Source: Chrysogorgia sp. JL179-B06
Taxonomy: Eukaryota > Cnidaria > Anthozoa > Scleralcyonacea > Chrysogorgiidae
Direction of reading: 5' to 3'
DNA length: 64,000 bases
Assembly: GCA_035772405.1 (NCBI GenBank)
Contig: JAYKKM010000508.1
Coordinates: 107,001 to 171,000, forward strand
Shown here: positions 29,104 to 48,863 of the stretch, piece by piece
Layout of the letters: each line of letters starts with the position of its first letter
How positions within the stretch are numbered: the first letter of the stretch is position 1
Translations under genes and position numbers: made by a program
The notes under the pieces: generated by a model
Seen by the model: the letters and a program-made list of their open reading frames with translations, nothing else
The model's database searches: none
Told to the model about the DNA's origin: nothing

Positions 29104-29109
29104 TAGCCA
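29104..29109. repeat. Target site duplication TAGCCA, left copy
   Basis: The six bases TAGCCA directly precede the inner element's first base and recur at 46404-46409 directly after its last base. Polintons are known for 6-bp duplications. Removing the element and one copy restores continuity with the homologous intact gene at 32560-32590. Confidence 0.95.
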
Positions 29110-29240
29110 AGTAGTAGTAAAAGGCCGATTCTAACTCACTTTTAGGTAAATCCACTAAGTGGGCGTGGCCAAAGTTTTTAACCACGCCCACTTAGGGAAT
29201 TTCCCTAAAAGTGAGTTAGAATAGGCCTTTTACTACTACT
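29110..29240. repeat. 131-bp terminal palindrome (left)
   Basis: The outer arm (AGTAGTAGTAAAAGGCC, then TTCTAACTCACTTTTAGG) is the reverse complement of the inner arm ending at 29240. The centre holds a second inverted pair, AAGTGGGCGTGG and CCACGCCCACTT. The element end could fold into a long hairpin with an internal arm. Confidence 0.9.
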
Positions 29241-29276
<36 letters not shown>

Positions 29277-29537
29277 TTCCAAGAATTATCTCGAGAAATA
29301 ATTCCAAGAATTCCTTAAGAGAAAGGGCGTGGTCGAGATGCCTTAAAAAAGGGCGTGGCCGAGACGTCTTGAAAAAGGGCGTGGCAGAGGTGCCTTAAAA
29401 AGGGGCGTGGTAGTCACGTGGTCGGCACGTGGTCGAGGTCAAGTTTCAAGGTCAAGTTCCAAGAATTATTTTTGAGATAATTCCAAGAATTCCTTAAGAG
29501 AAAGGGCGTGGTCGAGATGCCTTAAAAAAGGGCGTGG
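29110..29537. repeat. Left terminal inverted repeat, 428 bp
   Basis: Begins AGTAGTAGTAAAAGGCC. The first 131 bp (to 29240) form an imperfect palindrome closing with GGCCTTTTACTACTACT. Six GTCAAG units (29241-29276) follow, then a region with repeated GGGCGTGG boxes spaced by TCCAAGAATTCCTTAAG-type segments. The repeat matches the right end in reverse complement until about 29537. The GGGCGTGG boxes resemble GC/CACC-box promoter elements. Confidence 0.93.
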
Positions 29538-29660
29538 CTGAGACGTCTCAAAAAAAGAGGCGTGGCCGATCCGTTTTGCGGTGTCAGGACAGTTTTCCGA
29601 AAGTCAGATCCGTTTGGAGTCTACGTGGTTTGTAGAGGTGTGTTGTTCCGATCGCTTGGG
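29538..29660. other. Spacer between the left TIR and the first gene
   Basis: Continues with GGCGTGG-type boxes, then unique sequence. It contains no frame. Confidence 0.5.
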
Positions 29661-29999
29661 CTATTCTAGGTTTCTGGCAAACCGTAACTTTGCTTTTATG
29701 CCGGCTATCTTTCTTCCCAGTACAGTGCCTTTGAAGTGTTCGTAAAACCCCTCACGTTCCGTTCTAGTGTTAGTTAAGAGTTGTGTTTTTAGATCTATCA
29801 CCCAGTATATGTAGAGTAACTCGTCGTTGAGTCTCATTATTTTTTCCTTAACTGTCTCCCAACTCCTCACACTGTTACACACACTATCCTCCAAGTATTT
29901 GTATTCTATTAGGTGTTCGTATTTCGTGATGTTGTCGCGTACTGTTGGGTATCCGTGTCTTGTTAAGTATTCGTATCCCTCAAAGTTTTCAAACCTCAT
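29661..29999 (-). CDS. Unknown 112-aa protein (inner)
   Basis: The left-most gene, transcribed toward the TIR. Predicted mostly helical, with a charged C-terminus (GRKIAGIKAKLRFARNLE). No recognised domain. A truncated homologue survives in the outer element at 26395-26529, so the gene belongs to the family. The start MRFENF is preceded by a TATA-like AGTATATAAC context on the minus strand. Confidence 0.65.
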   Translation of the reverse strand: MRFENFEGYEYLTRHGYPTVRDNITKYEHLIEYKYLEDSVCNSVRSWETVKEKIMRLNDELLYIYWVIDLKTQLLTNTRTEREGFYEHFKGTVLGRKIAGIKAKLRFARNLE

Positions 30000-30063
30000 T
30001 AAGTTGTTATATACTTATGTCTTTAGGTCTTCTTGTGAATTATTGTAATTAGATAGCACTGTC

Positions 30064-30597
30064 TCACTTGTTCGGTGGTTTCCCCTCAGGGGTTTCCTCT
30101 CTAGCCATGTGGCTAAATACGTGTTTACTAGTTGTTAGTCCACCCGATAACAACCCTAAACAAGGGAGGTAGGGGGATACGTATGATATAAACTTCTCTA
30201 CGTCTCTTTTAAGTAGCTGGTCAGTAATCAACTCTTTTTCAAGCTTTTCAGGTGATTCAATAGCGTTGAACCCTCCTAACGCGTGGGCGAACTTGCTTAT
30301 TAAAAGGTCGCAGAGAAACACGTTCGCTTTCTCCATTCTTTTTACCTCCCATTCTCCGTAGATCTTGTTGATAACTTTATCTGAAGCCTTTTTGAGATAA
30401 GCGATGGATTTGTCTATCTCACCGTCCTCTGAGAGTCTTCTTAGTTCGTCTCGTTTCTTGTCTACGTCAGTTTGAGGAGTGTCGTCAACTTGTGACGTGT
30501 CGATTTGTGGTTCGTCAATCACTTCCCGTTCTGCTTCTTGTATGTCTTCAATGAGTTCGTCAATTGTCTCGAGATTTTTTGTCTTACGTTTTGGCAT
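30064..30597 (-). CDS. Polinton conserved protein, 177 aa (inner)
   Basis: Homologue of 26581-27129. It has a basic N-terminus, an acidic linker with a DTSQVDDTPQTDV motif, a helical core and a weakly hydrophobic segment (ISYVSPYLPCLGLLSGG). It overlaps the ATPase start by 14 nt, which suggests they are expressed together or have nested promoters. The function is unknown; a virion or packaging accessory role is a guess from position. Confidence 0.75.
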   Translation of the reverse strand: MPKRKTKNLETIDELIEDIQEAEREVIDEPQIDTSQVDDTPQTDVDKKRDELRRLSEDGEIDKSIAYLKKASDKVINKIYGEWEVKRMEKANVFLCDLLISKFAHALGGFNAIESPEKLEKELITDQLLKRDVEKFISYVSPYLPCLGLLSGGLTTSKHVFSHMAREETPEGKPPNK

Positions 30598-31222
30598 GTC
30601 CTATATTATACGGTGTGTTTTGTTTTTGCGGGATAACTAGTTCGTACGAGTACGGATGTCTTAGAAGTATCTCCAATCTTGCGTACTCGTTGTCTTTCAA
30701 CTGTTTTATTATTTTCTCAATTTCCGCTTTATCAACTCCGTTGAGATAATCGTCTACGATAATTTTCATATCGTTTCTGTTAGGGTTGTAGAATGTTACT
30801 AACTTTGAGATGTTCTCACGGTATGGTTTACTAATTGAGGTTAGTTGTTGTGTTACGACTATTGTGGATAGGTTGTAGTGTCTAGCACTAAAGGCTAGTT
30901 TAACTAGTTCGCTTGTTCTGTTTTTGACGTCCTGCCCACCAGCGCAATCGTCTAGTATTATCAATGAATTGGTGCCTTTGTAAATACCAGTCACGTATTT
31001 AAGAAATACGTCGACCTTGTCTTGCTCACACTGAATAGCGATAAAGTTTGGGTCTCTCAAGTATTTCCACTCTATGTACGTTTTATTCCATTCAAATGTT
31101 GGACATATAAGAATGATGTGATCGAAGTGATTCATGTAGTCTTTCTCTATCATATCCAAGAGGTAGTGCGTTTTACCACAGGCTGTCATACCAACGATTA
31201 GCATGTTAAAAGGTGTTTTCAT
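30584..31222 (-). CDS. ATP: A32/FtsK-like packaging ATPase (inner)
   Basis: 212 aa. Walker A GMTACGKT (11-18), Walker B SLIILDDCAGG (86-95), and a TQQ motif near residue 137. It follows the capsid gene with a short spacer (31223-31239), as in many Polintons. Motor for moving DNA into the capsid by family knowledge. The start is chosen at the ATG following an AAACATATAGTATT block. Length agrees with compact A32-like ATPases. Confidence 0.92.
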   Translation of the reverse strand: MKTPFNMLIVGMTACGKTHYLLDMIEKDYMNHFDHIILICPTFEWNKTYIEWKYLRDPNFIAIQCEQDKVDVFLKYVTGIYKGTNSLIILDDCAGGQDVKNRTSELVKLAFSARHYNLSTIVVTQQLTSISKPYRENISKLVTFYNPNRNDMKIIVDDYLNGVDKAEIEKIIKQLKDNEYARLEILLRHPYSYELVIPQKQNTPYNIGHAKT

Positions 31223-31239
31223 ATAGAATACTATATGTT

Positions 31240-32478
31240 TTAGTATTGGATTGATTGTAGATCGTTGTTGGTAAGGTTTACGAGTCCGTCGGAGAGTATG
31301 AACATTCTACACATGACGTTCGCTGTTGTGACTTTTTTAATGATTTCCATCAGTATTCCTGACTGAGTGTTCACGATCTTTTTTCCAGTGGCTACTTTCG
31401 CGTTATCTTCGATAGATCTAAGGTCAACAACCAAAGCGAAACCGTCTTTGTAAAACTTTTGGACAGTCATGTGCTGGTCACAGTCTAGTTTTCGTCCAAA
31501 TAGTCGTTTCGCTTCTACCCATAGTCTTGATTTTGGTATTCCTTGACTGTATACCATGTTTGGCACGCCTTCAATAGTGAGTTTGACTGACTCTATGTTT
31601 GGGTAGACGAACTCCTCACTGTCAGTTCTTGTCTTATTTGTGAAGAGTAGAACGATAGCTTTCATTGATTTTCTTGGTAGGTTAATGTTTTCGTTCATAA
31701 GTGTGATTCCTTTATCCCACTCCACAGTCTTCATTAGCGTGACGTGCTCGTATGATAGAGACCTACCGGACGCGTATAGAGATGATACTTCATCAGCGAT
31801 CTCTTGACTCTCGATAGTTTCATACTCCAATTCGAGGTTCTCCAACGTATAACCAGCTACAGCTGATCCAGATTGAGCCACCATAATATCAGTTGCTTTG
31901 GGGAGTGTGATTATGTACCTGAGATTATTGTTCATATTATACGGTGCGTATAAACCGTGATCTTCTAGAATCTCGTCAAGTTGAATCTTTTGTTTAGTGC
32001 CGTGAATAGAGAACATCAGACCATCGCTAACTTTTTGTACGTTTCCAGTGGCCGCGCCACTGTCGTCCTTCGAGATTAACTTTCGAAGGTTCTCGTTTGC
32101 TAGGCCGTATTCGATCATAGCCGCTCGCTCTGTTTTAGATCTCCACAAGTCTCTGTACGTACCGATAACACTCTCACCACAGTTGTCGTACACAGTCTCA
32201 CCTGCTAGTTTTATAACCAGTTTTTCAGAGAGTAGTCTCGAGAGGTTATTGAGAAACCATGATTTCACGTTCACACTTTTGAAGTCGAATAGAAGATGGA
32301 AACTGGAGGGTACCAAACAAGTGTTACTCTTTGTCTTTGGGATATCAATGTATAACTCCTCCTCTGGATTGGCTTTGTTAGGGTTCAGTGTCACAACGTG
32401 ACGGGTTCTTGTGCCTTTGATAGCAGATATTTCGCGACGTCTATATCCAGGAATCAACTCTTTTTCACTAGTATTCAT
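31240..32478 (-). CDS. MCP: Putative major capsid protein, 412 aa (inner)
   Basis: Beta-rich, with no membrane segment and no enzymatic motif. Features include EELYIDIPKTKSNTCLVPSS and FDFKS in the N-terminal part and FALVVDLRSIED near the C-terminus. From memory these are comparable to the opening strands (...LDLSN...L) and end (...DLT...) of the capsid proteins of Polintons, often annotated as F54H12.2-like. Position supports this: it sits directly before the packaging ATPase in the structural gene block. At 412 aa it is shorter than typical double jelly-roll capsids (about 500-650), so structure prediction would be the test. The start is preceded by AAAACATGTGTTATAATATA. Confidence 0.7.
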   Translation of the reverse strand: MNTSEKELIPGYRRREISAIKGTRTRHVVTLNPNKANPEEELYIDIPKTKSNTCLVPSSFHLLFDFKSVNVKSWFLNNLSRLLSEKLVIKLAGETVYDNCGESVIGTYRDLWRSKTERAAMIEYGLANENLRKLISKDDSGAATGNVQKVSDGLMFSIHGTKQKIQLDEILEDHGLYAPYNMNNNLRYIITLPKATDIMVAQSGSAVAGYTLENLELEYETIESQEIADEVSSLYASGRSLSYEHVTLMKTVEWDKGITLMNENINLPRKSMKAIVLLFTNKTRTDSEEFVYPNIESVKLTIEGVPNMVYSQGIPKSRLWVEAKRLFGRKLDCDQHMTVQKFYKDGFALVVDLRSIEDNAKVATGKKIVNTQSGILMEIIKKVTTANVMCRMFILSDGLVNLTNNDLQSIQY

Positions 32479-32500
32479 ACTATATATTATAACACATGTT

Positions 32501-33931
32501 TTATTTCCTCTGTTTGTACTGATCGTAGACGAACCAAGCTAGTGCTATCGCTAGGATCCATAAATTAGACGCTAACCAAGATATGCCTGCAGCTCCCCAC
32601 TTTAACGCAGTTGCCACCACGTTTAGCAGTCCAGCCAGTAGAGGACCAGCCTTTGTGGCTAGGTTAGTTATAGCTTTTCCTAGTTTTCCAAGTGCTTGAC
32701 CACCTTTGAATACTACGCTTCTAGCGGATATTATAATCGTGGTGATAAAAGAGGCTATGGTTATTCCTAAAGCCGAGGCACCCAACCAATTTTCCTTAAA
32801 CCACTCCTTTATTATTTGTAACCGAGTGATGTCCTCTTCTTGTTGTTCTCTAACAGTCTCACGTTCCAATTGTCCTAAGGTTAGGTCCCTAGCTTTTCTT
32901 AAACCAATTATTCTTTCTTCAAGTCCAATTACCTCTATAGAGTCATCACTATTGTCTCTCTCTTCAAGTGTTTTGTCTATAGCGTCCTGAAAATAGTCGG
33001 CTTGCGCTCTTAGAAATTGTGGTCTAGTGTCTGGGTCGATTGTATCACTTGGGTTTAGGACACCTGTTAACTCGCGATTTTCTTCTTCTGTTAACCCGAA
33101 TACGTTATCGTAATTCGTTTCTGTTCTAATTACTGGGAAGTCTTCACTTGAAACTGTGGTGTCTTCTGTTCTATCGTCAGTTGTTGGGGTGTCTACGTTT
33201 TCTGTTCTAACGTTAGTTGTCGTGTCGAGGATTTGACCGACCAACTGCTTAAACTGCTCAATCGCACTCTTACTATTTTTGTCTGTACTGTAGATTAAAC
33301 CATTTTTTCCAGGTTTTAGTATTAGTTTAGGTTTCAAATATTCACCTTTTTCATTTACCGGTTTGAAAATAACAGAACCTGAGGGTGTCACATATGACCT
33401 ATTGACTATATTCCTTGACACATCGTCGTTACTGAGTCTTTTTTTATACAATTTGCGTATTTTTCTATCTATTAGATTGGTTCTTTTTATACCATTTTCT
33501 AAAATCTCTTTGTTGAGTGTTTTTAGCTTACCCAACCTTCTTTTGATTTCGCTAGCCTCTTCGAAAGCTAAATTGAAGCTCTCGTCGTGGACGTCACCAT
33601 ATGTCGCCGGTTCGGCAAACACTACTGCTGGAGCCTCAGTGGTGACATCGCTGCCTTTACTAGTGATTAACACTGTTTTTCCATCTTTTCTGCCTGTGAA
33701 TAATGTCTCCATAAATCTGTTTTGTAATCTGCGTACTATGTCTCTCTTCTCTATCTCTACTTCCACCCTGGCGATTTTAGCTAATCTAACGGTTTTTTCT
33801 CGATCTGTTTCGTCTTCTATGAGTGTAGTATTGTCAAGTGTCTCAAACTCTTCTTCTAACTGCTCGTCTGTATAATCCTTAAACTCGTCAAGACGTTGCA
33901 TTTCGATTTCATCGAACCCTCCTTCAGCCAT
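32501..33931 (-). CDS. Membrane-anchored structural protein candidate, 476 aa (inner)
   Basis: Acidic, coiled-coil-rich N-terminal half (residues 1-180), a Thr/Asp-rich linker (about 240-275), a second helical segment (about 300-380), then two hydrophobic segments (ASALGITIASFITTIIIS near 390-410 and LWILAIALAWFVY near 456-470) separated by an amphipathic alanine/glycine-rich stretch. The enzyme class is unknown. The amphipathic and membrane end resembles membrane-active minor virion proteins in design, but no homology is claimed. The outer copy of this gene is the insertion target of the inner element. The promoter motif AAAACATCGAGTAGTATATA ends at the ATG. Confidence 0.75.
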   Translation of the reverse strand: MAEGGFDEIEMQRLDEFKDYTDEQLEEEFETLDNTTLIEDETDREKTVRLAKIARVEVEIEKRDIVRRLQNRFMETLFTGRKDGKTVLITSKGSDVTTEAPAVVFAEPATYGDVHDESFNLAFEEASEIKRRLGKLKTLNKEILENGIKRTNLIDRKIRKLYKKRLSNDDVSRNIVNRSYVTPSGSVIFKPVNEKGEYLKPKLILKPGKNGLIYSTDKNSKSAIEQFKQLVGQILDTTTNVRTENVDTPTTDDRTEDTTVSSEDFPVIRTETNYDNVFGLTEEENRELTGVLNPSDTIDPDTRPQFLRAQADYFQDAIDKTLEERDNSDDSIEVIGLEERIIGLRKARDLTLGQLERETVREQQEEDITRLQIIKEWFKENWLGASALGITIASFITTIIISARSVVFKGGQALGKLGKAITNLATKAGPLLAGLLNVVATALKWGAAGISWLASNLWILAIALAWFVYDQYKQRK

Positions 33932-33937
33932 TATATA

Positions 33938-35023
33938 CTACTCGATGTTTTGAATATCACTCTCTGGTATCCATGAATTATGTTTACTGTCATAGCCAAG
34001 CCACTTGACTAAAACCATTTTCTTACCCTTAACCTTCTTTCTCTTTAGTATCTTCTCAACTTTATATACATCGTCTTTTTTATCGACAGCTGACAACTCT
34101 TCCTCGTAGAACTTACCAATGATGGGTTCCCCTTCGTGGTCCTCTATCTCGTATACGGTAGGGTCACCACGTATGACCTTTGTAACTTTGAATAGCTCCT
34201 CAGTGAAGTTAGCCTCATACCCTTTCGCAAATATGCTCTTGTACTTTGATATCCTGACAGTATCACCTACTTTAAACTTTGGTAGTGGGTAGTCACCGAA
34301 ATGGTACCCAAACAACGTCGTCCATACTTCGTTTTCGTTTTTCTTACTAACGTCTTTAGGTTTCATTAGAACAGTACTGTGTTTGGTATTGTTGTAATTC
34401 TTAACGAGCTGATCTAAAACGTCAATCCACTTGTACGTTCCTTTACTGTAGAAGTATTTCCACATAGACGTCTTGAGTGTTCTGTTAAACCGTTCCACGA
34501 CTGCTGCCTTTTTGTCAGAGTTCGTGCTGAAGTACTTAACGTCGTATTTATCCAATAGATCCTTCACACCAATGTTATAGAATTCCTTACCGTCGTCAAA
34601 CTGAGCCAGCTTTGGGTACTCGCCAAATCTAACCTTAGCCATCTCTAGTAACTTTGTGACAGCCTTAGTCATGTTTTTCGTGTCTTTCCTATAGACGGGT
34701 ATTGCGAAAGCATACCTACTAAGGATCTCAGTGGCTGTTAGTATCCAGTAGTACCCGTTGTTCTTATGCTTGTACTTGCCCATATCAACCAAGTCCATCT
34801 GTATCTGCTCACCCAGATAGTCAACGAATGTTTGTCTAAACTTGTGTTTCTTAACAACTGGTTTGTACCTGGTGTACGTGTCTTGAGATTTTAACCAGTC
34901 CTTTATCGTTGCCCTACTAACGTTTAGACCGCCTTCCTGTGCCTTTTGGTATAGCCTCTCAGCGGACTGGTAGCCAGTTGACGGATTATAGTAAATACCT
35001 CTTAGTTCTTGCTCTACGTCCAT
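33938..35023 (-). CDS. INT: Retroviral-type integrase with C-terminal chromodomain (inner)
   Basis: 361 aa from the ATG at 35021-35023; a GTG six bases upstream is not needed. The rve core has its catalytic triad at D77 (QMDLVDM), D143 (QFDDGKEF) and E177 (AVVERFNR). An SH3-like segment follows (FKVGDTVRISK, about 250), then a chromodomain (VLVKWLGYDSKHNSWIPESD) at about 317-360. The integrase joins element ends to host DNA and makes the 6-bp duplication; the chromodomain may guide it to methylated histones. The frame is intact. It overlaps no neighbour but shares a tight boundary with the penton-like gene. Confidence 0.95.
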   Translation of the reverse strand: MDVEQELRGIYYNPSTGYQSAERLYQKAQEGGLNVSRATIKDWLKSQDTYTRYKPVVKKHKFRQTFVDYLGEQIQMDLVDMGKYKHKNNGYYWILTATEILSRYAFAIPVYRKDTKNMTKAVTKLLEMAKVRFGEYPKLAQFDDGKEFYNIGVKDLLDKYDVKYFSTNSDKKAAVVERFNRTLKTSMWKYFYSKGTYKWIDVLDQLVKNYNNTKHSTVLMKPKDVSKKNENEVWTTLFGYHFGDYPLPKFKVGDTVRISKYKSIFAKGYEANFTEELFKVTKVIRGDPTVYEIEDHEGEPIIGKFYEEELSAVDKKDDVYKVEKILKRKKVKGKKMVLVKWLGYDSKHNSWIPESDIQNIE

Positions 35024-35028
35024 ATACA

Positions 35029-35673
35029 CTACGTGATGTGTAAATCTAACAGCACCTCGCCAACGCTAATACTGTTATCGTCCTGGTCTGTTATCTTAAA
35101 CTCTAGTTGGTTGATGACTCCTTTGTTTATTGGGATTTTAGATCCAACACCAAAATGTTGTACAGAGCCCTTAAGTGTCTGTGTGCTAGTTATTGGCAGT
35201 ACTGCGATACAACCACTTTTGCTACCATTAACTATGTTATTAGACCTGTCCACAATATTAGATGTTACTTGTATGTATTTCAGTCCTCTGTTAACGCTCA
35301 CAACGTTAGGACTGGTTTTTGTGGTGGTTATTGTAGTGTTTTCGTCAAACCCTAGAAGTTGTCCAAATTTAAACAGTTCTATTTGTTGGTCAGTTGTTAT
35401 CGTACACGTCGAGTCGTATCTGTTAGCCACTAGCTTGACGTCTCCTAACTCTCTCAAGTAGTCGGCAATCGTTTTAAAGGTGTGGTATCCAGGACTAAAA
35501 ACGTGGTTGTTACTGTTATAAGTTATCTTGTTGTTAGCTGTGGTTACGTTAACGTAGTTCCAAAAGATGGTTGCCTTCTCCACTAGTAAGTGAGGGTCTG
35601 AGTTAGTTGCTAGAGCTGACTCTGGTAGGTCTATAGTTTTCGTTGAACCACTAATCAATACTACCACTCTCAT
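35029..35673 (-). CDS. Putative penton/minor capsid protein (inner)
   Basis: 214 aa, beta-rich. The C-terminal pattern PINKGVINQLEFKITDQDDN then a short VxLDLHI end matches what I remember of Polinton minor capsid proteins (a hydrophobic strand, then ITDQ, then an alternating LxLHL terminus). LGFDENTT in the middle also fits that family. Single jelly-roll pentamers would sit at capsid vertices. The start faces the 574-aa gene across a 17-bp divergent promoter. Confidence 0.6.
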   Translation of the reverse strand: MRVVVLISGSTKTIDLPESALATNSDPHLLVEKATIFWNYVNVTTANNKITYNSNNHVFSPGYHTFKTIADYLRELGDVKLVANRYDSTCTITTDQQIELFKFGQLLGFDENTTITTTKTSPNVVSVNRGLKYIQVTSNIVDRSNNIVNGSKSGCIAVLPITSTQTLKGSVQHFGVGSKIPINKGVINQLEFKITDQDDNSISVGEVLLDLHIT

Positions 35674-35690
35674 ATAACGTACGGTATGTT
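35674..35690. promoter_or_regulatory. Divergent promoter between the leftward and rightward gene blocks (inner)
   Basis: Only 17 bp (ATAACGTACGGTATGTT) separate two divergent ATGs. On each strand it reads as an AACATACCGTA-like or AACGTACGGTA-like copy of the motif found before most genes of the element. The same 17 bp are unchanged in the outer copy (49509-49525). Confidence 0.65.
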
Positions 35691-37415
35691 ATGATGGATG
35701 AGTTCAAAATAAAGTATCCTTATGCTGACAAGAATAGGTTTTTTCTTGATGTTGACGACAATATGCATATGCATATATTCTTCGTGACGAAAACTAATAT
35801 TGGTGACGTTAGTGTAGACTCAAGTAGGTTTAAGAGTAACCCGGAGTACACTAAGTATCTAACTATAAACAAACCAATGATAGTTGACCAAAAAGAGATA
35901 GCTAATGCCATACGTGTGGCTAAGCTGAATCTAGTTAAAAAGTACCCTCACGTCACTTCGAGTAAGTTTGAGTTCGATCCAACTGTCTCACAAGATGGTG
36001 AGGTTAATGGCGTTGACATATATTTTAGAAACAACGACATCATAAGCACTAACATAACTAGTGATACCTTCAAAAACGACAAGAGTATGTGGATTTGGTT
36101 ACACAACAACAAGTCTAGTCACGACGACAAGTTTCCAAAAATATGGCTATCTGGTGGAACTATCCAACCACTATCAAAAGGTCGCAAGAACCACTGGGGA
36201 CTTTGGGATGGCTATCCAACGGAAAACGTGTTGAACTACTCAGTGAATAACTTTAGAGTCTTCGTTAATCAAAAGAACTACTTTCTCTCAAAGTTATCAA
36301 TACTACAAATCACCACTTCAAAGACAAAGTCAAAGTGGGACGATAATGAGAGCTACTATAGGGTCGTGTTTGCAACGTATTGTGCGAGTTTCTGTTGTGG
36401 AGTGTCGTTACAACACTTGTCACCATCGCAAGAAGTTCACCCTGTTATCACTAGTGTAATGAGGTTTCATCTATACTTTACTGTTAGAAGACTTCTCAGA
36501 AGGATGGAAGGTGGTGAGAGTATGAGATCGATAAGTAGAGAGTTTGATGCTGGAGAATTGTATGGTAAGACAGACAAGATTCCTAAAAAACATTACTACC
36601 AGGGTAAAGTCCTTGCTGATGGTACAACAGGCGAGGAGAGAGTCTTCACGATTAACGACGTTAAGAACGACTACAAACGATACGTTCCTCTGGTATCGAA
36701 TGGTTTTACCAACATTGGGCGACAATACCTAAATCAGTCCATAGAAGCCTTTGTTTACTCCACACTTGGTGCACAAGCGAGAACACGTGTGTCAGTCGTT
36801 GGTGATTCTGCAGGCAGTCTAGAGACTCAACAAGAGTTCCGAAAGTTGGTGGAGGATAGTGTTATAAACTACGACGTGTCAACGTGGATTCTCAACATGA
36901 ACAAGTCGATTAGGGACACTAACGTTGTCCAAAACCTTGCGCTGTCACCGTCTACGTGGTTAATGCCAAGTAACGTTGTAATCCTAAAGAACAAAATCGC
37001 TGGGTACAACAACCTATTGAAGACTGCTACACAGAGTATGAAGTTTGGGGTAAACACTGGGTTAAACCACGCGAGAACGACTGAGGTTAAGAAAGTACAC
37101 CAAGAAGGTGGAGAGCACCTGGAGACACTTGACAAACCAAAGGTGACGAATCGTCTGGTGACATCAAACGTGGCACACCAGGAAGGTGGAGAGCATCTGG
37201 AGACACTCGACAAACCAAAGGTGACGAATCGTCTGGTGACATCAAACGTGGCACACCAGGAAGGTGGAGAGCATCTGGAGACACTTGACAAACCAAAGGT
37301 GACACATCAAGAACGTCGTCTAGAAGTGACACCAGGTGACAACACGACAGAGTTGTGGCTAGTCTTAGGGGTCTCGGCTGCGTCTGGCTATTTAGTGAGC
37401 AAATATGTGTTATAG
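35691..37415 (+). CDS. Unknown virion-associated candidate with repeats and C-terminal membrane anchor, 574 aa (inner)
   Basis: The N-terminal 450 residues are globular, with a well-conserved block GRKNHWGLWDGYPTENVLNY and a cysteine pair (YCASFCCG). Three in-frame 26-residue repeats (HQEGGEHLETLDKPKVT...) follow, encoded by 78-bp units from about 37098. The end is one hydrophobic segment (LWLVLGVSAASGYLVSKYVL). The outer copy has fewer repeats and a frameshift. I remember similar proteins as unnamed cnidarian predictions. A surface-exposed stalk anchored in a virion membrane is one reading of the layout. The next gene starts four bases after the stop. Confidence 0.7.
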   Translation: MMDEFKIKYPYADKNRFFLDVDDNMHMHIFFVTKTNIGDVSVDSSRFKSNPEYTKYLTINKPMIVDQKEIANAIRVAKLNLVKKYPHVTSSKFEFDPTVSQDGEVNGVDIYFRNNDIISTNITSDTFKNDKSMWIWLHNNKSSHDDKFPKIWLSGGTIQPLSKGRKNHWGLWDGYPTENVLNYSVNNFRVFVNQKNYFLSKLSILQITTSKTKSKWDDNESYYRVVFATYCASFCCGVSLQHLSPSQEVHPVITSVMRFHLYFTVRRLLRRMEGGESMRSISREFDAGELYGKTDKIPKKHYYQGKVLADGTTGEERVFTINDVKNDYKRYVPLVSNGFTNIGRQYLNQSIEAFVYSTLGAQARTRVSVVGDSAGSLETQQEFRKLVEDSVINYDVSTWILNMNKSIRDTNVVQNLALSPSTWLMPSNVVILKNKIAGYNNLLKTATQSMKFGVNTGLNHARTTEVKKVHQEGGEHLETLDKPKVTNRLVTSNVAHQEGGEHLETLDKPKVTNRLVTSNVAHQEGGEHLETLDKPKVTHQERRLEVTPGDNTTELWLVLGVSAASGYLVSKYVL

Positions 37416-37419
37416 CATA

Positions 37420-38373: not shown

Positions 38374-38378
38374 GATAT

Positions 38379-39127: not shown

Positions 39128-39130
39128 GTG

Positions 39131-39934
39131 ATGAGTATCACTAAAATATTTAGAAATAACGACATGTCTGTCACGACTATTAAAGATGGAGACAATATTT
39201 GGTTCTATGGAAAAGAAGTCGCTAAGGCATTAGGGTATAAAAACGCGAAGTGGGCTATCAGCGTACACGTTGACGATACATATAAGGTCAAACGAGAGGT
39301 GTTTGAAGGGGGGCGCGAATCACGCCCCCCTTTAAACTTACAACCAAACACGATATTAATATCGGAGCCAGGAGTTTACGCTCTAGTCTTCTCATCGAAA
39401 CTTGAGTCAGCAAGAAAGTTCCAAAAATGGGTATTCACAGAAGTCCTACCATCTATTAGAAAGACGGGACAGTACACACAACATAACCAACTATCGATTA
39501 TGAATGAGACAGATTTACACTACGACATTGTGAAGTACATTAGAGAGTACCATCCAACAATAGTCATCCCAGGGTTGGGTGAGTACCAAGACACATCTAC
39601 TAAAAGAATAGATGGATGGAAGAAGGGTTACAGTGGTGGGCAACCAGATTTGATAGTTCCACAACTTCACAAAAGATACAATGGTTTTGCTATAGAGTTC
39701 AAAACACCGAAAGGTAATGGGATTATTAGGAATAACCAGATTAGGATATTAAGGAGACTAAGATCACAAGGGTATAACACGTTACTATCCTCAGACCAAC
39801 ATGAGATAATACATTTCATAGAGACATATATGACAGACTCTAGAGTTCTGTGTGAGTACTGCAATAGGAGATTTAAGAGTGAAACCACACTGTCTAATCA
39901 TCAAAAATACTTTCACCGAATACTCTATCTGTGA
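39131..39934 (+). CDS. Bro-N / PD-(D/E)XK nuclease / zinc-finger fusion (inner)
   Basis: 267 aa from the ATG at 39131. Residues 1-115 match the BRO/ANT N-terminal DNA-binding domain (IWFYGKEVAKALGY; GVYALVFSSKLESARKFQKW; EVLPSIRKTG). Residues about 160-225 look like a VRR-NUC/endonuclease core (GGQPDLIV, then FAIEFKTPKGNG, then a conserved Gln in the next helix). A C2H2 finger closes it (CEYCNRRF...HQKYFH). A palindromic insert at 39306-39333 adds GGRESRPPLN inside the Bro-N domain without breaking the frame. Bro-N and nuclease fusions occur in large DNA viruses. Likely acts on viral or host DNA. Confidence 0.75.
   Translation: MSITKIFRNNDMSVTTIKDGDNIWFYGKEVAKALGYKNAKWAISVHVDDTYKVKREVFEGGRESRPPLNLQPNTILISEPGVYALVFSSKLESARKFQKWVFTEVLPSIRKTGQYTQHNQLSIMNETDLHYDIVKYIREYHPTIVIPGLGEYQDTSTKRIDGWKKGYSGGQPDLIVPQLHKRYNGFAIEFKTPKGNGIIRNNQIRILRRLRSQGYNTLLSSDQHEIIHFIETYMTDSRVLCEYCNRRFKSETTLSNHQKYFHRILYL
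39306..39333. repeat. Palindromic mini-insert type 1 (inner, inside Bro-N gene)
   Basis: AAGGGGGGCGCG and CGCCCCCCTTT arms surround a short loop. The same 33 bp (including TTTAAAC after it) appear in the outer element at 52602-52634, in a different gene. Both copies are read in the same frame as GGRESRPPLN. Confidence 0.85.
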
Positions 39935-39992
39935 GATAATCTGTGAGATGACTGTGAGGTCATCTGTAACAAGACACCACGTATAGTATAAG

Positions 39993-40292
39993 ATGACTGA
40001 CAGTGAGTCCGTACCTATTATAACGTCGACAACGAAGGTTAAAGACCCTAGGAGAGTAGAGGCAGGCAAACGCTTGGCTGCTATATCAAAAGCAGCCAAG
40101 GAGAGGAAGATGAGAGATAGAGTCATAAGTGAGGACGATAGTTTTAACTATGGATACATCATAGGTACTATTGGAGTGGTAATAGCCGCTGGCTCACTGT
40201 ATTACACGATTAGTCAAGACAAACAAGTAGTGAGCGAAGAGCCTAAGACCGTTGTTATAAAACCATCACGTAAACTCGACAGCCTCGATTAA
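39993..40292 (+). CDS. Small single-pass membrane protein, 99 aa (inner)
   Basis: Basic N-terminal half (GKRLAAISKAAKERKMRD), one membrane segment at about 53-73 (YGYIIGTIGVVIAAGSLYY), and a polar tail. Conserved almost unchanged in the outer element. It is preceded by CACGTATAGTATAAG, the shared motif, just before the ATG. The function is unknown. Confidence 0.75.
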   Translation: MTDSESVPIITSTTKVKDPRRVEAGKRLAAISKAAKERKMRDRVISEDDSFNYGYIIGTIGVVIAAGSLYYTISQDKQVVSEEPKTVVIKPSRKLDSLD

Positions 40293-40309
40293 AACATGTC
40301 GTATAATAT

Positions 40310-40543
40310 ATGGCATCAATAGACAGAAAAGAACTGATGAACGAGCTATACGACGCAGCCCTCGTGACTGCTGGAGCCGTAGCCGTATCCATGGCATCAA
40401 AGAAAGTACTAAAAGAACCGTTAGGCACTCCCGAATCAGTGAAGGGCACCCTCAAGTTAGCGACTGCTGTAGGCGTTTCGACGCTACTCGTTAAGTGGGC
40501 GCAGAGCAAGAAATACTTACCTATTGACCCGTTCTCGAAATAA
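40310..40543 (+). CDS. Small hydrophobic protein, 77 aa (inner)
   Basis: Two short hydrophobic helices (ALVTAGAVAVSMASK and LATAVGVSTLLVKWA) separated by KEPLGTPESVKGT, a signature I remember from unnamed proteins in cnidarian Polinton-like elements. Identical in the outer copy at the protein level, so it is under strong constraint. Upstream: AACATGTCGTATAATAT. Confidence 0.8.
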   Translation: MASIDRKELMNELYDAALVTAGAVAVSMASKKVLKEPLGTPESVKGTLKLATAVGVSTLLVKWAQSKKYLPIDPFSK

Positions 40544-40559
40544 CACAGCGTAATATATA

Positions 40560-40976
40560 ATGGCTAGTGCGGTAGCAGGTGGGTTGTTCAACGCCATAGC
40601 ATTCGCAGGAGCTGGGTTTCTATTCAGCAAGCTAAACCATACAGGTTACGAGACAGAGATAAAGAGACACAACAAAGCATTGGAGAGTCTTGCAAGAGCT
40701 AAAGAAAAGTTCTATGAGAACGAGATTCGTCAGAGAGATAAAGTCCAGGAATTAAGACAACAGTTGTCAGATGCTAATGCAGACATAAACGACACGAACC
40801 ACGCTCTGGATCAACTAAGACAAGTACTTACGATACAGTATGATGGGAAGACATTTAGTAAAGAGCCTGAGTTGTCAGACTATTACAAACCCTCAGATGA
40901 GATGAAAGAATACCAAACGGTATTCGTTGGAGTCGTTGGACTACCTTTAGGTTACTTAATATATAGAGTGTTATAG
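40560..40976 (+). CDS. Membrane/coiled-coil protein, 138 aa (inner)
   Basis: N-terminal hydrophobic segment (VAGGLFNAIAFAGAGFLFSK, residues 4-23), a long coiled coil (about 32-90), a conserved PEL/QLSDYYKPS-type box, and a second hydrophobic segment at the end (VFVGVVGLPLGYLIYRVL). Both ends could insert in a membrane with the coil between them. A recurrent gene in this family by memory; no assigned function. Confidence 0.78.
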   Translation: MASAVAGGLFNAIAFAGAGFLFSKLNHTGYETEIKRHNKALESLARAKEKFYENEIRQRDKVQELRQQLSDANADINDTNHALDQLRQVLTIQYDGKTFSKEPELSDYYKPSDEMKEYQTVFVGVVGLPLGYLIYRVL

Positions 40977-40978
40977 AA

Positions 40979-41164
40979 ATGAGCACTAAAACTTTGAAGG
41001 AGATGGCTATGGAATTCGATAAAAAGCGTAACTTGACAGATACACTCTCTTACCAAACTCGTCAGATAGAAGAGTTGGAACAACTACTATCAGACGCTCT
41101 AAAACAGGTCATAACAATAAAGTGTGAGTTGGAGACACTCAACAACAAAGTTACTATACTATAG
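40979..41164 (+). CDS. Coiled-coil microprotein, 61 aa (inner)
   Basis: Starts three bases after the preceding stop. It forms one heptad-rich helix (RQIEELEQLLSDALKQVIT...LETLNNKV). The outer homologue at 54915-55085 (56 aa) is shorter by one small in-frame deletion, which argues that the frame is real. Confidence 0.7.
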   Translation: MSTKTLKEMAMEFDKKRNLTDTLSYQTRQIEELEQLLSDALKQVITIKCELETLNNKVTIL

Positions 41165-41194
41165 TCTAAAGACACATATAGTATAGTAACTTAG

Positions 41195-41815
41195 ATGATT
41201 GACGAACGTACAATGAGAATGTTCTATGCTGGGTATACATTAGATGAGATTGTATCAAAAAAGTGGAGTGGTACTACATTAGGGTATACATTGGACGAGA
41301 TCAAGAACGGAAGTAAGGACGCAACACCGAAAAAGTGGCACGACACCACGTACTGTTATGAGTGTAGTAACCACAGAACCCAAATCGAAGATGGTGTATT
41401 TAGTTGTAACAAGTGTGGAGAGACTACCTACGGACGCGTGAGAAACTTTGTACCTAACATTTGGATGTACAAGAAATCGGCTCATAGTTATAGTAAGTGG
41501 CTAGATAGAATGTTGACTGGACTAGTTAGCGAGAGTGACATACCAACAGTTGTCAGTGATTTTATAGAGATAGTATGGTCTCTTAAAAGAAACAAACTGA
41601 TTGTCAAGAACATATCGAAATATATTTTCTATGTCATAAGAATATGCTCTAGAAGAGGTATAAAGTTGATAGGTAGTTTTAACGACCTCAAACCTGGTAA
41701 GGTTAAGGTACGATTCGAGTATAACCTGTATAGCGTAGTATACAAGGATCTAGGTTGGGATGGGAGAGGAGATCCATACTACAACGAGTGGATCAGAAAA
41801 GGTCTAGAGAAATAA
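41195..41815 (+). CDS. VLTF3-like zinc-ribbon protein, 206 aa (inner)
   Basis: A zinc ribbon with C54-x2-C57...C71-x2-C74 (CYECSN and CNKCG) is followed by the phrase SYSKWLDRMLTGLVSESDIP and a helical domain ending in YYNEW. The order zinc ribbon, then a Y/HxxxWLxxxxG...(D/E)IP helix, is the hallmark of the late transcription factor VLTF3/A2 of large DNA viruses. If right, the element carries its own late-gene activator, consistent with a shared promoter motif on its genes. The match is remote, so confidence is moderate. Confidence 0.5.
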   Translation: MIDERTMRMFYAGYTLDEIVSKKWSGTTLGYTLDEIKNGSKDATPKKWHDTTYCYECSNHRTQIEDGVFSCNKCGETTYGRVRNFVPNIWMYKKSAHSYSKWLDRMLTGLVSESDIPTVVSDFIEIVWSLKRNKLIVKNISKYIFYVIRICSRRGIKLIGSFNDLKPGKVKVRFEYNLYSVVYKDLGWDGRGDPYYNEWIRKGLEK

Positions 41816-41833
41816 AACATATAGTATTATATA

Positions 41834-42013
41834 ATGGGAAGACCTAGAATTTACCAAACCAAAGAAGAAGCTTTAAGAGCAGCAAGAGCGCAAACTAAAG
41901 TGTGGATGAACACTCACAAATGGGTGTGTGAGACATGCGATAGGCCATACCATGTGACCTCTAAATATAAACACCTAAAGACCAAAAAGCATTTGAGAAA
42001 TTTGGAAGCGTGA
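41834..42013 (+). CDS. Small C2H2-type zinc-finger protein, 59 aa (inner)
   Basis: ATG at 41834-41836, stop 42011-42013. It encodes VCETCDRPYH, then HLKTKKH, giving Cys32, Cys35, His47 and His53, a U1-like C2H2 finger. It is preceded by AAAACATATAGTATTATATA. The outer homologue (55741-55920) has the same length. Possible DNA or RNA binding. Confidence 0.75.
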   Translation: MGRPRIYQTKEEALRAARAQTKVWMNTHKWVCETCDRPYHVTSKYKHLKTKKHLRNLEA

Positions 42014-42105
42014 TTACATTGTACTAGTATAGTAAATTATAAAACGACTCTTTTTAGGTAAGGGTCTAAAGAAATAAAACATATCCTATAGTATATAGAC
42101 ATAAC

Positions 42106-45100
42106 ATGTCAAGTAGGACGGAAAAAACGACACGTCCTGAAAACATAATGGATAAACCAACTCCACGCGGACTTAAAGAACCTGTAATGACACCTACGCC
42201 TGCACCTCCCACACCAAGAAGAAGTGTGAGAGAGCGTATGACTTCGTTCAAGGAGTCTCTCAAAACTTTCAAAAAGAAGATGAGTCAATGGAACGAGTGG
42301 ATCGTAGACCACATACCAGAACCCATTAAGAAACACACAACAAGTGCTTTCGACTTGTTCAAAGAAAAGATAGACTCTATATTTAGAGAAACTATACCAC
42401 GAAAGAGTGAGACCTCACTTAGAGGTTTCTCAAACAACTTTGAGATTAACGCTGGGACAAACACAGAACCAAAGGTGTTCCTAGAACAGTCAAAAGTTGT
42501 TGTGTTAGACCTTTGGAAGAAACAGATGAAAAAAGGAATTAAGACCAAGTTAATTCTGGATTGTGTGATGGTTCGCACAGCGAACGACGAAGAGGTTGAA
42601 GCTGAGGCACACTTTCACACTCTCACAAAGATTATACTACCTGGCACAAACTCTGAAGAGACGTACAACGAGATGGTTGAGAAAATGTTAGAGAGCTTCT
42701 CTACATACTTGACTAGAGGAAGTAACTGGAGACTTCTTCGTGTTGTGAGACTAACCATTCACATCGACAAGTACACACCAATGTCTGGGAGCTCCCACAT
42801 TCCTACACCACAAGCACTAGTTCACAAAAAAGCCATCGTAAACGTTAGAAACAAAAAGAACGATATGTGTTTCAAGTGGTCTGTAACTGTTGCTAAAACG
42901 CCACTTGAAGAGAAAAACCAAGAAAGACTAAGTAAGAAACTCGAAGAAGCTTCGACGAATTACAATTGGACCGAGGTTAGGTTTCCAACACCACTAGAGG
43001 ACATTAAGAAATTTTCAAAAAATAACAAGATAGGAATAAACGTATTTGGTTACGATGAGGGTGAGGTGTACCCTCTTCTTATCCAAGGAAACTCTAGAGA
43101 CATCATTAACTTGCTTTACATCAAGAATGAGACAACATCTCATTACGTCTGGATCAAGAACATGAGTAGACTCATGTCAAGTAAGAATAACAACCACCAA
43201 CACGAGATTCACTATTGTTATAGATGTTTAAATAGCTTCAAGAATACTAAGTCACTAGAAAAGCACGACGAATACTGTTCAGACGTTAATAGTATTAAAA
43301 CTATAATGCCGGAAAAAGGTAAAGATGATAAACTAACTTTCACAAACAACCACAAAACACAAGACGTGCCATTCGTGATCTACGCTGATTTTGAGTCGTT
43401 CATCGAGAAGATTGAAGGATGTGAGAACAAACCAAACAGTAGTTTTACCAACAAATACCAACACCATACACCATCAGGATGGACCTTCCACCTAAAATGT
43501 AGTGATGACAAACTATACTGGGAGGAGCCAGTAAGTAGAACCAAGAAGAGCCAGGAAGACGACCTGGCCAAGTCGTTCGTAGAAGAGATAGAGAAAGCTG
43601 CGCGTAGAGCGTACAAGAGATTCAAGGTGATAATACCAATGAACCTAAGCTCTGAGGAGACGGAAATTTTCGAGAATAGCACAAAGTGCTGGATTTGTGA
43701 AAAAGATTCTCCCTACCCTGAAGACTACATAGTCAGAGACCATTGTCACATGACAGGAAAATTCAGAGGAGCCGCACACACGTCGTGTAATCTAAAATAC
43801 AAATTACCAAAATTTATTCCTGTTATTTTCCACAACTTGTCTGGATACGACGCTCACTTGTTTATCAAAAGCCTAGGTGGAGACATAAACTGTATTCCAT
43901 GTAACGAGGAGAAATACGTCTCCTTCAGTAAAAATATTGTGGTGGACCACTACACTGATAAGACTGGTAAAGAAAAACCTATCACCAGAGAAATTAGATT
44001 CTTAGACAGTTTTAAGTTCATGGCTTCTAGTCTAGATAGACTAGCAAAGAACTTGTCTAAAGACCAGTTAGTATCCACAAGAAAACAGTTCGAAAAAGAC
44101 GAAGATTTTGAGCTAGTTTCCAAGAAAGGTGTCTACCCATACGAGTACATGGATCAGATAGAGAAACTAAAAGAGGAAAAATTACCTCCTAAAGAAGAGT
44201 TCTACTCGAAACTGACTGACACAGACATCAGCGACGAGGACTATGAGCACGCCCAAAAAGTTTGGAAAAACTTTGGAATGAAGACCATGAAGGATTACCA
44301 CGACCTCTACCTGTTGACAGATGTGTTGTTGTTGGAGGATGTGTTCGAGAACTTCAGGTCTGTTTGTACGAAAAATTATGGACTAGACCCTGCATGGTAT
44401 TACACATCTCCAGGGCTATCATGGGACGCACTACTAAAAACAACAAAAGTAGAACTAGAGTTGTTGACCGATATTGACATGTTGTTGATGATGGAGAGAG
44501 GTATCAGAGGAGGAGTCTCCACCATCACAAAAAGACACGCCCAAGCCAATAACAAACATATGGGGTACACAAAAACACCAGAGTCAGAACCACGAGCAAA
44601 ACACGATCCTACCAAACCTTGCGTATACTTACCATACCTTGACGCAAACAACCTCTACGGATGTGCTATGAATATGAAATTACCTACGGGAGATTTCAAG
44701 TGGATGAACAGTGCACAACTAAAGAACTGGAAGAAAGCACCTTGTATTCTAGAAGTCGACCTAGAATACCCTGAGAAACTTCACGATGCTCATAACGATT
44801 ATCCTCTAGCCCCAGAGAGGTTAATAATTAACGGAGTGGAAAAGCTAGTCCCTAACTTGATGAACAAGAACAAATACGTTATTCACCGTAAGAACCTTAA
44901 GATGTATCTTAAATATGGAATGAAGTTAACAAAAATTCACAGAGGGATTACTTTCAGAGAGGGAGCTTGGATGAAGAAGTACATAGATCTTAACACACAA
45001 CTGAGAACAAAGGCTACGAACAGTTTCGAGAAAGATTTCTTCAAGATGATGAACAACTCAGTGTTTGGAAAAACTATGGAAAACATCAGGAACAGGGTAG

Positions 45101-45825
45101 ACATCAAGTTAGTGACGAACGAAAAGAAAATGAATAAGCTTGTTTCCAAGCCAAATTACAGTCATCGCGCAATCTTTAGCGAGAACCTAATAGCAGTACA
45201 CATGAAGAGAACAAAAGTGAAATTCTACAAACCCGTATACCTTGGGATGAGTATCTTAGACTTGAGTAAGACTGTAATGTACGAGTTTCACTACGAATAC
45301 ATTAAACCTAAATATGGGGATGCTGCTAAGTTATTGTTCACCGACACTGACAGTCTAATGTACGAGATACACACCGACGACTTTTACGAAGACATCTCAA
45401 ATGACGTTAGAGAGAGGTTCGACACCTCTGAGTACTCTAAGGACCACCCCTCCTGTATTCCAACAGGTTTGAATAAAAAGGTTGTAGGTCTATTCAAGGA
45501 CGAGAATAATGGAGAGCAAGTCCTAGAGTTTGTTGGTCTAAGAGCCAAGCTGTACGCATGTAAGACTAACAACTCAGAGCAGAGGAGATGTAAGGGGATA
45601 AAGAAAGGAGTTGTAACTAGATCAATAACATTTGAAAACTATAAAGAGTGCTTGCTCTCCGGAGAGACACAGATGAGAAGTATGAATACTTTTAGAAGTA
45701 GGAAACACGAAATTTACACAGAGACGGTCAACAAGATAGCACTAAGTAGTAACGACGACAAGCGGTACATCCTACCCGACAAGGTAAACACTCTGGCGTT
45801 GGGGCATCACCTCATCGCGGAATAG
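42106..45825 (+). CDS. POLB: Family B DNA polymerase, protein-primed type (inner)
   Basis: 1239 aa. Exonuclease motifs: ExoI YADFES (D428, E430), ExoII HNLSGYD (about 576-582), ExoIII YLLTDVL (about 735-741). Between ExoI and ExoII lies a Cys/His endonuclease-VII-like insert (CWIC at 528, RDHCHMTGKFRG at about 544-555), usual in Polinton polymerases. Polymerase motifs: A LDANNLYG (about 845-852), B KMMNNSVFG (980-988), C FTDTDS (1078-1083). The long N-terminus (1-400) would hold any terminal-protein function. All catalytic residues are present. It lies on the plus strand next to the right TIR, opposite in direction to the outer element's polymerase. Confidence 0.96.
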   Translation: MSSRTEKTTRPENIMDKPTPRGLKEPVMTPTPAPPTPRRSVRERMTSFKESLKTFKKKMSQWNEWIVDHIPEPIKKHTTSAFDLFKEKIDSIFRETIPRKSETSLRGFSNNFEINAGTNTEPKVFLEQSKVVVLDLWKKQMKKGIKTKLILDCVMVRTANDEEVEAEAHFHTLTKIILPGTNSEETYNEMVEKMLESFSTYLTRGSNWRLLRVVRLTIHIDKYTPMSGSSHIPTPQALVHKKAIVNVRNKKNDMCFKWSVTVAKTPLEEKNQERLSKKLEEASTNYNWTEVRFPTPLEDIKKFSKNNKIGINVFGYDEGEVYPLLIQGNSRDIINLLYIKNETTSHYVWIKNMSRLMSSKNNNHQHEIHYCYRCLNSFKNTKSLEKHDEYCSDVNSIKTIMPEKGKDDKLTFTNNHKTQDVPFVIYADFESFIEKIEGCENKPNSSFTNKYQHHTPSGWTFHLKCSDDKLYWEEPVSRTKKSQEDDLAKSFVEEIEKAARRAYKRFKVIIPMNLSSEETEIFENSTKCWICEKDSPYPEDYIVRDHCHMTGKFRGAAHTSCNLKYKLPKFIPVIFHNLSGYDAHLFIKSLGGDINCIPCNEEKYVSFSKNIVVDHYTDKTGKEKPITREIRFLDSFKFMASSLDRLAKNLSKDQLVSTRKQFEKDEDFELVSKKGVYPYEYMDQIEKLKEEKLPPKEEFYSKLTDTDISDEDYEHAQKVWKNFGMKTMKDYHDLYLLTDVLLLEDVFENFRSVCTKNYGLDPAWYYTSPGLSWDALLKTTKVELELLTDIDMLLMMERGIRGGVSTITKRHAQANNKHMGYTKTPESEPRAKHDPTKPCVYLPYLDANNLYGCAMNMKLPTGDFKWMNSAQLKNWKKAPCILEVDLEYPEKLHDAHNDYPLAPERLIINGVEKLVPNLMNKNKYVIHRKNLKMYLKYGMKLTKIHRGITFREGAWMKKYIDLNTQLRTKATNSFEKDFFKMMNNSVFGKTMENIRNRVDIKLVTNEKKMNKLVSKPNYSHRAIFSENLIAVHMKRTKVKFYKPVYLGMSILDLSKTVMYEFHYEYIKPKYGDAAKLLFTDTDSLMYEIHTDDFYEDISNDVRERFDTSEYSKDHPSCIPTGLNKKVVGLFKDENNGEQVLEFVGLRAKLYACKTNNSEQRRCKGIKKGVVTRSITFENYKECLLSGETQMRSMNTFRSRKHEIYTETVNKIALSSNDDKRYILPDKVNTLALGHHLIAE

Positions 45826-45981
45826 GGTATACGCACCACCACCAGGACCCGTCTGACTCTAACCTCCACCCGAACCCACCAAGCCAAGCCTGACTGCATG
45901 TCGTTGCTACAGAACGTGAACCACATCGCGCAATAATTCCCGGAGTCTAACTCGACCACACCCTGATTTTAAAAAACTTGA
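45826..45981. other. Spacer between POLB and the right TIR
   Basis: A GC-richer stretch with ACCACCACCAGGACC and CCACC repeats. No frame. Confidence 0.5.
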
Positions 45982-46403
45982 CCACGCCCTTTTCTAAGGC
46001 ATCTCGACCACGCCCTTTCTCTTAAGGAATTCTTGGAATTATCTCAAAAATAATTATTGGAACTTGACCTTGAAACTTGACCTCGACCACGTGCCGACCA
46101 CGTGACTACCACGCCCCTTTTTAAGGCACCTCTGCCACGCCCTTTTTCAAGATGTCTCGGCCACGCCCTTTTTTAAGGCATCTCGACCACGCCCTTTCTC
46201 TTAAGGAATTCTTGGAATTATTTCTCGAGATAATTCTTGGAACTTGACCTTGACCTTGACCTTGACCTTGACAGTAGTAGTAAAAGGCCTATTCTAACTC
46301 ACTTTTAGGGAAATTCCCTAAGTGGGCGTGGTTAAAAACTTTGGCCACGCCCACTTAGTGGATTTACCTAAAAGTGAGTTAGAATCGGCCTTTTACTACT
46401 ACT
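45982..46403. repeat. Right terminal inverted repeat, 422 bp
   Basis: Reverse complement of 29110-29537, with three mismatches seen by eye and five (not six) GTCAAG units. It ends GGCCTTTTACTACTACT at 46403. Contains the mirrored 131-bp palindrome at 46273-46403. Confidence 0.93.
46273..46403. repeat. 131-bp terminal palindrome (right)
   Basis: Mirror of 29110-29240, starting AGTAGTAGTAAAAGGCC and ending GGCCTTTTACTACTACT, with the same internal GGGCGTGG / CCACGCCC pair. Both element ends can therefore form the same hairpin. Confidence 0.9.
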
Positions 46404-46409
46404 TAGCCA
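46404..46409. repeat. Target site duplication TAGCCA, right copy
   Basis: Identical to 29104-29109. The outer element's 476-aa gene resumes directly after it. Confidence 0.95.
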
Positions 46410-47766: not shown

Positions 47767-47772
47767 TATATA

Positions 47773-48858: not shown

Positions 48859-48863
48859 ATACA

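Follow-up and report, generated by a model that had tools for sequence, protein, structure and literature searches.

Locus and insertion site

We analysed a stretch of 64,000 nucleotides from Chrysogorgia sp. JL179-B06 (contig JAYKKM010000508.1; G000:C508:107001-171000 in our coordinates), here called the window, and searched the 781-Mb assembly of 522 contigs from which it is taken. Within this window one Polinton (the inner element) lies inside a second, related Polinton (the outer element) and is flanked by a target duplication of 6 base pairs (bp). The inner element was delimited by its ends, the duplication and native empty sites.

29110..46403, + strand: inner Polinton, 17,294 bp
29104..29109: left TAGCCA of the 6-bp target duplication, natively single in other copies from the genome
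46404..46409: right TAGCCA of the 6-bp target duplication
29110..29537, + strand: left terminal inverted repeat of the inner element, 428 bp
45982..46403, - strand: right terminal inverted repeat of the inner element, 422 bp

The inner element starts with AGTAGTAG and ends with CTACTACT, and thus has AGTAGT...ACTACT termini of the form (AGT)2//(ACT)2. Its AG...CT ends, the 6-bp duplication, the terminal inverted repeats and a length within 15-20 kb are all properties by which Polinton/Maverick elements are recognised. As the left and right terminal repeats differ only by three substitutions and one 6-base unit, the inner insertion is recent. The original prediction, made from the sequence letters alone, had placed the element at 29110-46403 between two copies of TAGCCA, and both copies as well as the terminal repeats were found in place. 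Its description of the locus, a Polinton that integrated into a related element and duplicated 6 bp, is now backed by the end motif, the duplication, the terminal repeats, the gene content and native empty sites.

To examine the empty site, each flank (left, 28900-29109; right, 46404-46613) served as a separate query against the same genome, and the best 40 of 848 (left) and the best 40 of 841 (right) first-look candidates were compared. In all 23 other copies common to both best-40 listings the two flanks overlap by exactly 6 bp, as compared to a spacing of 17,294 bp in the window. Because the flanks were searched apart, the empty site is shown natively and no artificial joining is needed; the claim of a verifiable empty site thus holds. 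The flanks outside 29104 and 46409 furthermore align without gaps to 32560-32600, within the copy of the interrupted gene that the inner element itself carries. An uninterrupted match had been predicted here, which is correct regarding continuity but not identity, since TAGCCA agrees with 32573-32578 (TAACCA) in only five of six bases. The expectation that the insertion breaks the outer copy of a gene that is intact in the inner element was likewise borne out: the inner copy is a single open reading frame (ORF) of 476 amino acids, and the outer copy is severed about 25 codons before its end. The insertion of a Polinton into a second Polinton with a 6-bp duplication is therefore confirmed in the assembled sequence.

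Genes of the inner element

30584..31222, - strand: A32-like packaging ATPase (Pfam PF04665, E 6.8e-17)
31240..32478, - strand: predicted double jelly-roll major capsid protein (structure model and Foldseek)
32501..33931, - strand: inner copy of the interrupted gene, 476 amino acids, hydrophobic C-terminal part (ORF, comparison with the outer copy)
33938..35029, - strand: integrase with rve core (Pfam PF00665, E 5.8e-08) and C-terminal chromodomain (PF00385, E 7e-13)
39128..39934, + strand: Bro-N protein (PF02498, E 2.3e-25) with VRR-NUC-like and zinc-finger-like parts, the latter two below cut-off
42106..45825, + strand: putative type B DNA polymerase with endonuclease VII domain, inner clade (relatives matching PF03175)

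The gene content includes the Polinton/Maverick set of an rve integrase with chromodomain, an FtsK/A32-like packaging ATPase and a predicted double jelly-roll capsid protein, and the C-terminal chromodomain of the integrase is also characteristic of adintoviruses. The model of the capsid protein (pLDDT 77) gave an iridovirus capsid protein as its best Foldseek match (E 6.3e-14), and the matches include the PBCV-1 and mavirus capsid proteins, with TM-scores of about 0.5. A comparison of the capsid protein with solved structures by sequence returned two matches, both at chance level, and none of 11 pattern matches to capsid relatives in viral contigs was confirmed. The closest named capsid relative is from the octocoral Paramuricea clavata (66%), and the named relatives of the inner and outer polymerases include stony corals, a sea anemone and one sea spider record. 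All 21 aligned polymerases contain the endonuclease VII domain; PF03175 is matched by two of the 21, the inner polymerase not being among them, so that its probable type B character is assigned through its relatives. For a cysteine protease, no protease family was detected at E <= 1 among the 14 inner ORFs scanned with Pfam, and a diverged or shorter one is possible. Not all Polintons are known to encode such a protease. Profile scans with PHROGs and NCBIfam added little to the annotation.

Structure of the outer element

16087..16350, + strand: left end of the outer Polinton, 97.7% to the corresponding end of copy C269
26394..29109, + strand: left core segment of the outer Polinton
46404..59601, + strand: right core segment and inverted polymerase; the right end of the element (C508:174181) is beyond the window
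46395..47766, - strand: most of the interrupted gene in its outer copy, frameshifted; last codons at 29035-29112
55990..57345, - strand: C-terminal piece of the outer polymerase, gene broken
57406..59589, - strand: N-terminal piece of the outer polymerase with endonuclease VII domain

The outer element reaches from 16087 to C508:174181 (window-equivalent 67181), its right end thus lying outside the window. Its borders were placed using the termini of other copies as a guide. To this end, ten other copies were retrieved that contain the left flank as well as the outer polymerase; eight of the ten were read at both ends, and the terminus AGTAGTATAG is common to these eight. The 6-bp duplications of the outer family are perfect in all 12 other copies in which both ends were seen (8/8 and 4/4), and the outer copy in the window is flanked by the imperfect pair GAACAC and AACACG. 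In this copy about 29 bp at 46747-46784 are absent from the interrupted gene, which are present in all ten other copies compared, and several outer genes are broken where their inner counterparts are single ORFs. The predicted Polinton pair stands as far as the nesting is concerned, but the picture was incomplete: the outer element extends from 16087 to beyond the window, it is a mosaic that combines the same core with another polymerase and other ends, and nesting has occurred more than once in this genome.

Nested Polintons in other copies

Of the 39 other copies listed for the left flank, 30 were inspected for the left terminus of the outer family. It was located within the fetched range in 25 of these, and three of the remaining five hold a foreign full-length Polinton. 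The nest in copy C326 is flanked by TTCCAC on both sides, has terminal repeats identical over the 199 bp compared and lies with 19,001 bp within the ATPase gene. In C319, ATAGTA is found on both sides of an element of 18,337 bp in the left end region (terminal repeats identical over 300 bp compared). The nest in C209c (C209:2338713) is flanked by ACCATC, has repeats identical over 400 bp compared and sits, with a length of 18,540 bp and in reversed orientation, within the capsid gene. The three lengths derive from end coordinates, the interiors having been read in part. No foreign Polinton protein match was present in the fetched pieces of the other two copies, C416 and C51. Altogether, 3 of the 30 other outer copies thus contain a nested full-length Polinton with a perfect 6-bp duplication.

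Shared core and probable exchange of the replication module

The core DNA of the inner and outer element is about 90% identical, mostly 85-97% from about 30000 to about 42000, identity being lower at 32040-32240, within the interrupted gene and at 38900-39500. Its borders near 30000 and 42000 are sharp, identity dropping to background within about 200 bp. For the left core, eight of the ten fetched copies were used, two being left out for want of a full-length stretch. These eight differ by 0.9-1.7% among each other and by 1.6-2.1% from the outer copy in the window, and all nine outer copies differ by 9.9-10.4% from the inner element. As the inner element is equidistant from nine mutually close outer copies, the two elements represent two families. 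The ratio of nonsynonymous to synonymous divergence (dN/dS) was 0.07-0.25 in 11 comparisons of inner with outer core genes, and thus both lines evolved under constraint. The most diverged core gene is that for the Bro-N protein (39128-39490), with a dS of 0.84 as compared to 0.14-0.44 in the others, possibly as a result of local exchange.

The polymerases and ends present a different picture from the core. While the capsid proteins of the inner and outer element are 85.7% identical, their polymerases share only 38.5% (N-terminal part) and 51.1% (C-terminal part) of residues and are encoded on opposite strands, and the terminal sequences are unrelated beyond AGTAGTA. When 8,000 candidates were scored per query, all of the best 120 relatives listed for the inner polymerase were closer to the inner one, as opposed to 0 of the 120 for the outer polymerase. 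A tree of 37 rows separates the inner and outer sets with a support of 100/100, and the two polymerases belong to two old clades. Within the genome, the capsid protein of the inner element is most similar to that of the outer element, followed by the nested elements of C209c (75.1% over 350 amino acids), C319 (72.8%) and C326 (62.3%). The inner polymerase is closest to that of C326 (72.2%), and the outer one to those of C209c and C319 (about 69% in the C-terminal part; 60.9% to C319 in the N-terminal part). The termini follow the same division, AGTAGTATAG being found in the outer element, C319 and C209c and AGTAGTAG in the inner element and C326. Thus, in the five families sampled the terminal sequence goes with the polymerase clade, independent of the core. 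Relative to the core, the outer polymerase alone is reversed as compared to the inner element, C319, C326 and C209c, and therefore an inversion in the outer lineage is likely.

These observations, an insertion with duplication and empty site, a shared core, and divergent polymerases and ends, are best explained by a nested insertion combined with an exchange of the replication module, i.e. the polymerase together with the terminal sequences, between lineages sharing an integrase-capsid core. We assign this reading a probability of about 0.87. In its course, the shared integrase-capsid core would first have diverged. The inner lineage, in the simplest reading the most likely recipient, would then have taken polymerase and ends from a donor resembling the element nested in copy C326, and the polymerase would have been inverted in the outer lineage. 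Following amplification of the outer family and insertion of this outer copy, the inner Polinton would finally have integrated at TAGCCA within a gene of the older outer copy, duplicating 6 bp. The module would comprise the polymerase gene plus the terminal sequences from which the polymerase starts copying, and both were probably transferred in one event. The inner insertion itself was presumably performed by the chromodomain integrase.

Some points weigh against the exchange. The inner polymerase has no match to the Pfam polymerase family, nor was a match to solved structures obtained by sequence. The sets in the polymerase tree were chosen by query, which favours their separation, and five families are a small sample.

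Terminal palindromes

29110..29240: terminal palindrome at the left inner end, 131 bp
46273..46403: terminal palindrome at the right inner end, 131 bp
16087-16186: terminal palindrome at the outer left end, 100 bp

The outermost parts of both elements are palindromic. Folding of the first 131 bp of the inner element gave one hairpin with a z of -16.4, and the corresponding values were -11.3 for the 100 bp of the outer left end and -25.8 for the outer right end (L029:2960-3181). A palindrome from the terminal base was observed in 56 of the 57 ends examined (21 and 36), one of these starting from the second base; the 57 ends are mostly copies of one young family and are not independent. Regarding the other nested elements, C209c has a palindrome of 169 bp (87%) and C319 a weak one (65%), and none was seen at the ends of the element in C326. 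Away from element ends, self-palindromes of at least 90 bp start at seven places or arrays in the window, so that a chance coincidence with the terminus is unlikely.

Covariation between the arms amounted to 17 two-sided cells at the left end, as compared to 5.9 in shuffles, and to 65 as compared to 25.8 at the right end, with far lower values in slid controls. The arms may be kept alike by copying between them or by a function of the hairpin as DNA. The covariation itself is weakened by the fact that the shuffles leave relatedness in place, that the number of pairs with two-sided change is not clearly above that in shuffles (70 and 52 of 500 reach it), and that further pair types are rarer than in shuffles.

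Alternative explanations

Both families are highly repeated, as the 848 and 841 first-look candidates for the flanks illustrate, and the nested arrangement could in principle be an assembly artefact joining repeat copies. However, a false join would not yield a 6-bp duplication exactly at the AGTAGT and ACTACT ends, and the same exact form recurs in three other nests on other contigs. In view of exact duplications in four nests we rejected this explanation, which is hardly conceivable. The outer family may alternatively have undergone no module exchange, its polymerase and ends being due to a later insertion or to fast divergence in place. The reversed polymerase, unlike that of the inner and the three other nested elements, does indicate at least a rearrangement at this site. 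But the same arrangement, within its own ends and 6-bp duplications, recurs in other copies, and the affinity of the outer polymerase to C319 and C209c and of the inner one to C326 is not expected from divergence in place. Divergence of polymerase and ends in place was therefore rejected based on the sharp core borders and the cross-family affinities of the polymerases, and the absence of any exchange appears quite improbable. The palindromic termini might also represent hairpin telomeres that replicate through a hairpin-transfer cycle like that of parvoviruses or poxviruses, which appears quite improbable as well. Near-perfect hairpins at the termini and the endonuclease VII domain common to the aligned polymerases would fit such a cycle. 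Hairpin-transfer cycles, however, are known to invert ends (flip and flop), and none of 26 left and none of 28 right ends, whose palindromes are asymmetric, was flipped; the C326 family moreover lacks a terminal palindrome. Thus, flip-flop hairpin telomeres were rejected.

If insertion were uniform, three events in about 83 kb would correspond to about 28,000 Polintons (95% interval 5,800-82,500). As the reason for the frequent nests we lean slightly towards a high Polinton density alone, without any preference of the integrase: if there were 10,000 Polintons, at least three events would occur in the 83 kb surveyed with a chance of 0.09, and Polinton DNA is probably neutral, so that insertions persist there. 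Against this, the chance falls to 0.0043 with 3,000 elements and to 1.1e-4 with 848, and the surveyed copies are among the youngest, in which few insertions are expected. An insertion preference for Polinton DNA is thus possible but not proven. Chromodomains reportedly direct retrotransposon integration to heterochromatin, as is ascribed to Gao et al. 2008, which suggests a possible mechanism for such a preference. A more far-reaching proposal would be that polymerase and ends form a replication cassette swapped as a unit, with the palindrome arms kept complementary, and that the chromodomain integrase steers copies into silenced older Polintons, making nesting the rule and uniting exchange partners. 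As a whole this proposal is tentative and rather doubtful.

Further features of the locus

16351..26393: non-Polinton insertion interrupting the outer element, bounded by a 30-bp inverted repeat
59602..64000, on to window-equivalent 66675: second insertion of non-Polinton DNA within the outer element, 7,074 bp

Neither of the two insertions, of 10 kb and 7 kb, carries recognised Polinton genes. The 10-kb insertion (16351-26393) contains tandem repeats, among them 164-bp and 21-bp ones, and no transposase was recognised in it. Within the second insertion, a 22-bp self-complementary tandem array (TATAGGATCCTATAGGAATTC-like) is located at 59924-60071. Pieces of a BEL/Pao-type retrotransposon (Pao peptidase, integrase parts, DUF5641) lie directly left of the outer Polinton at 11875-15997. 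In another copy of the outer family, C437 (L015), about 1 kb extra is present at the left end, and more ATPase gene fragments are located outside the element. Within the inner element, 78-bp tandem repeats at 37097-37330 are part of the ORF 35691-37415 and differ in copy number in the outer element. The region 38379-38879 encodes a membrane-like protein with weak, sub-threshold matches to the Ifi-6-16 (Pfam) and SLATT (NCBIfam) models.

Comparison with known systems

Taken alone, one nested insertion is unremarkable in kind. Less usual are the exchange in which the ends match, the palindromes at the termini and the rate of nesting. In the literature at hand, which covers the field in part and does not include the founding papers of 2006/2007, neither a Polinton inside a Polinton nor palindromic Polinton ends were found, which constitutes weak evidence.

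Vertebrate Polinton/Mavericks have 5'-(AGT)2//(ACT)2-3' ends, 6-bp duplications, lengths of 12.7-24.6 kb and terminal repeats of 46-1,447 bp (PMC8097293). The elements described here resemble them in end motif, duplication, size and terminal-repeat length as well as in integrase, ATPase, capsid protein and polymerase. They differ by their cnidarian-type sequences, by the lack of a recognised protease, by a family larger than the reported vertebrate average of 22, and by their terminal palindromes, the string 'palindrom' having 0 occurrences in the text of PMC8097293. Retrotransposons nested in virophages or polinton-like viruses have been described (PMC8547959, PMC12220804). As in these cases, mobile DNA resides in an integrated virus-like element, but the insert is here itself a Polinton instead of a retrotransposon. 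The four nested insertions with exact duplications should allow relative dating and a test of whether chromodomain integrases prefer older Polintons, and palindromic ends with covarying arms raise a concrete question on the start and finish of replication.

Replication and structural modules are exchanged in polinton-like viruses and virophages (PMC11071308), and adintoviruses show mixed Alpha/Beta hexon-polymerase pairs (PMC11071296). The Polintons in our study share with adintoviruses the integrase with C-terminal chromodomain and the re-pairing of polymerase and capsid lineages. Unlike in adintoviruses, the core of the two partners has remained about 90% identical, its borders are mapped, and a different polymerase comes with different ends. 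Overall, our results suggest that elements of this kind exchange their replication machinery as one module and frequently insert into each other. Whereas the mixing of capsid and replication genes is usually inferred from deep trees, the products of the exchange here still share about 90% of their core DNA, and therefore the borders are mappable and a single genome allows a test of the rule that the ends go with the polymerase.

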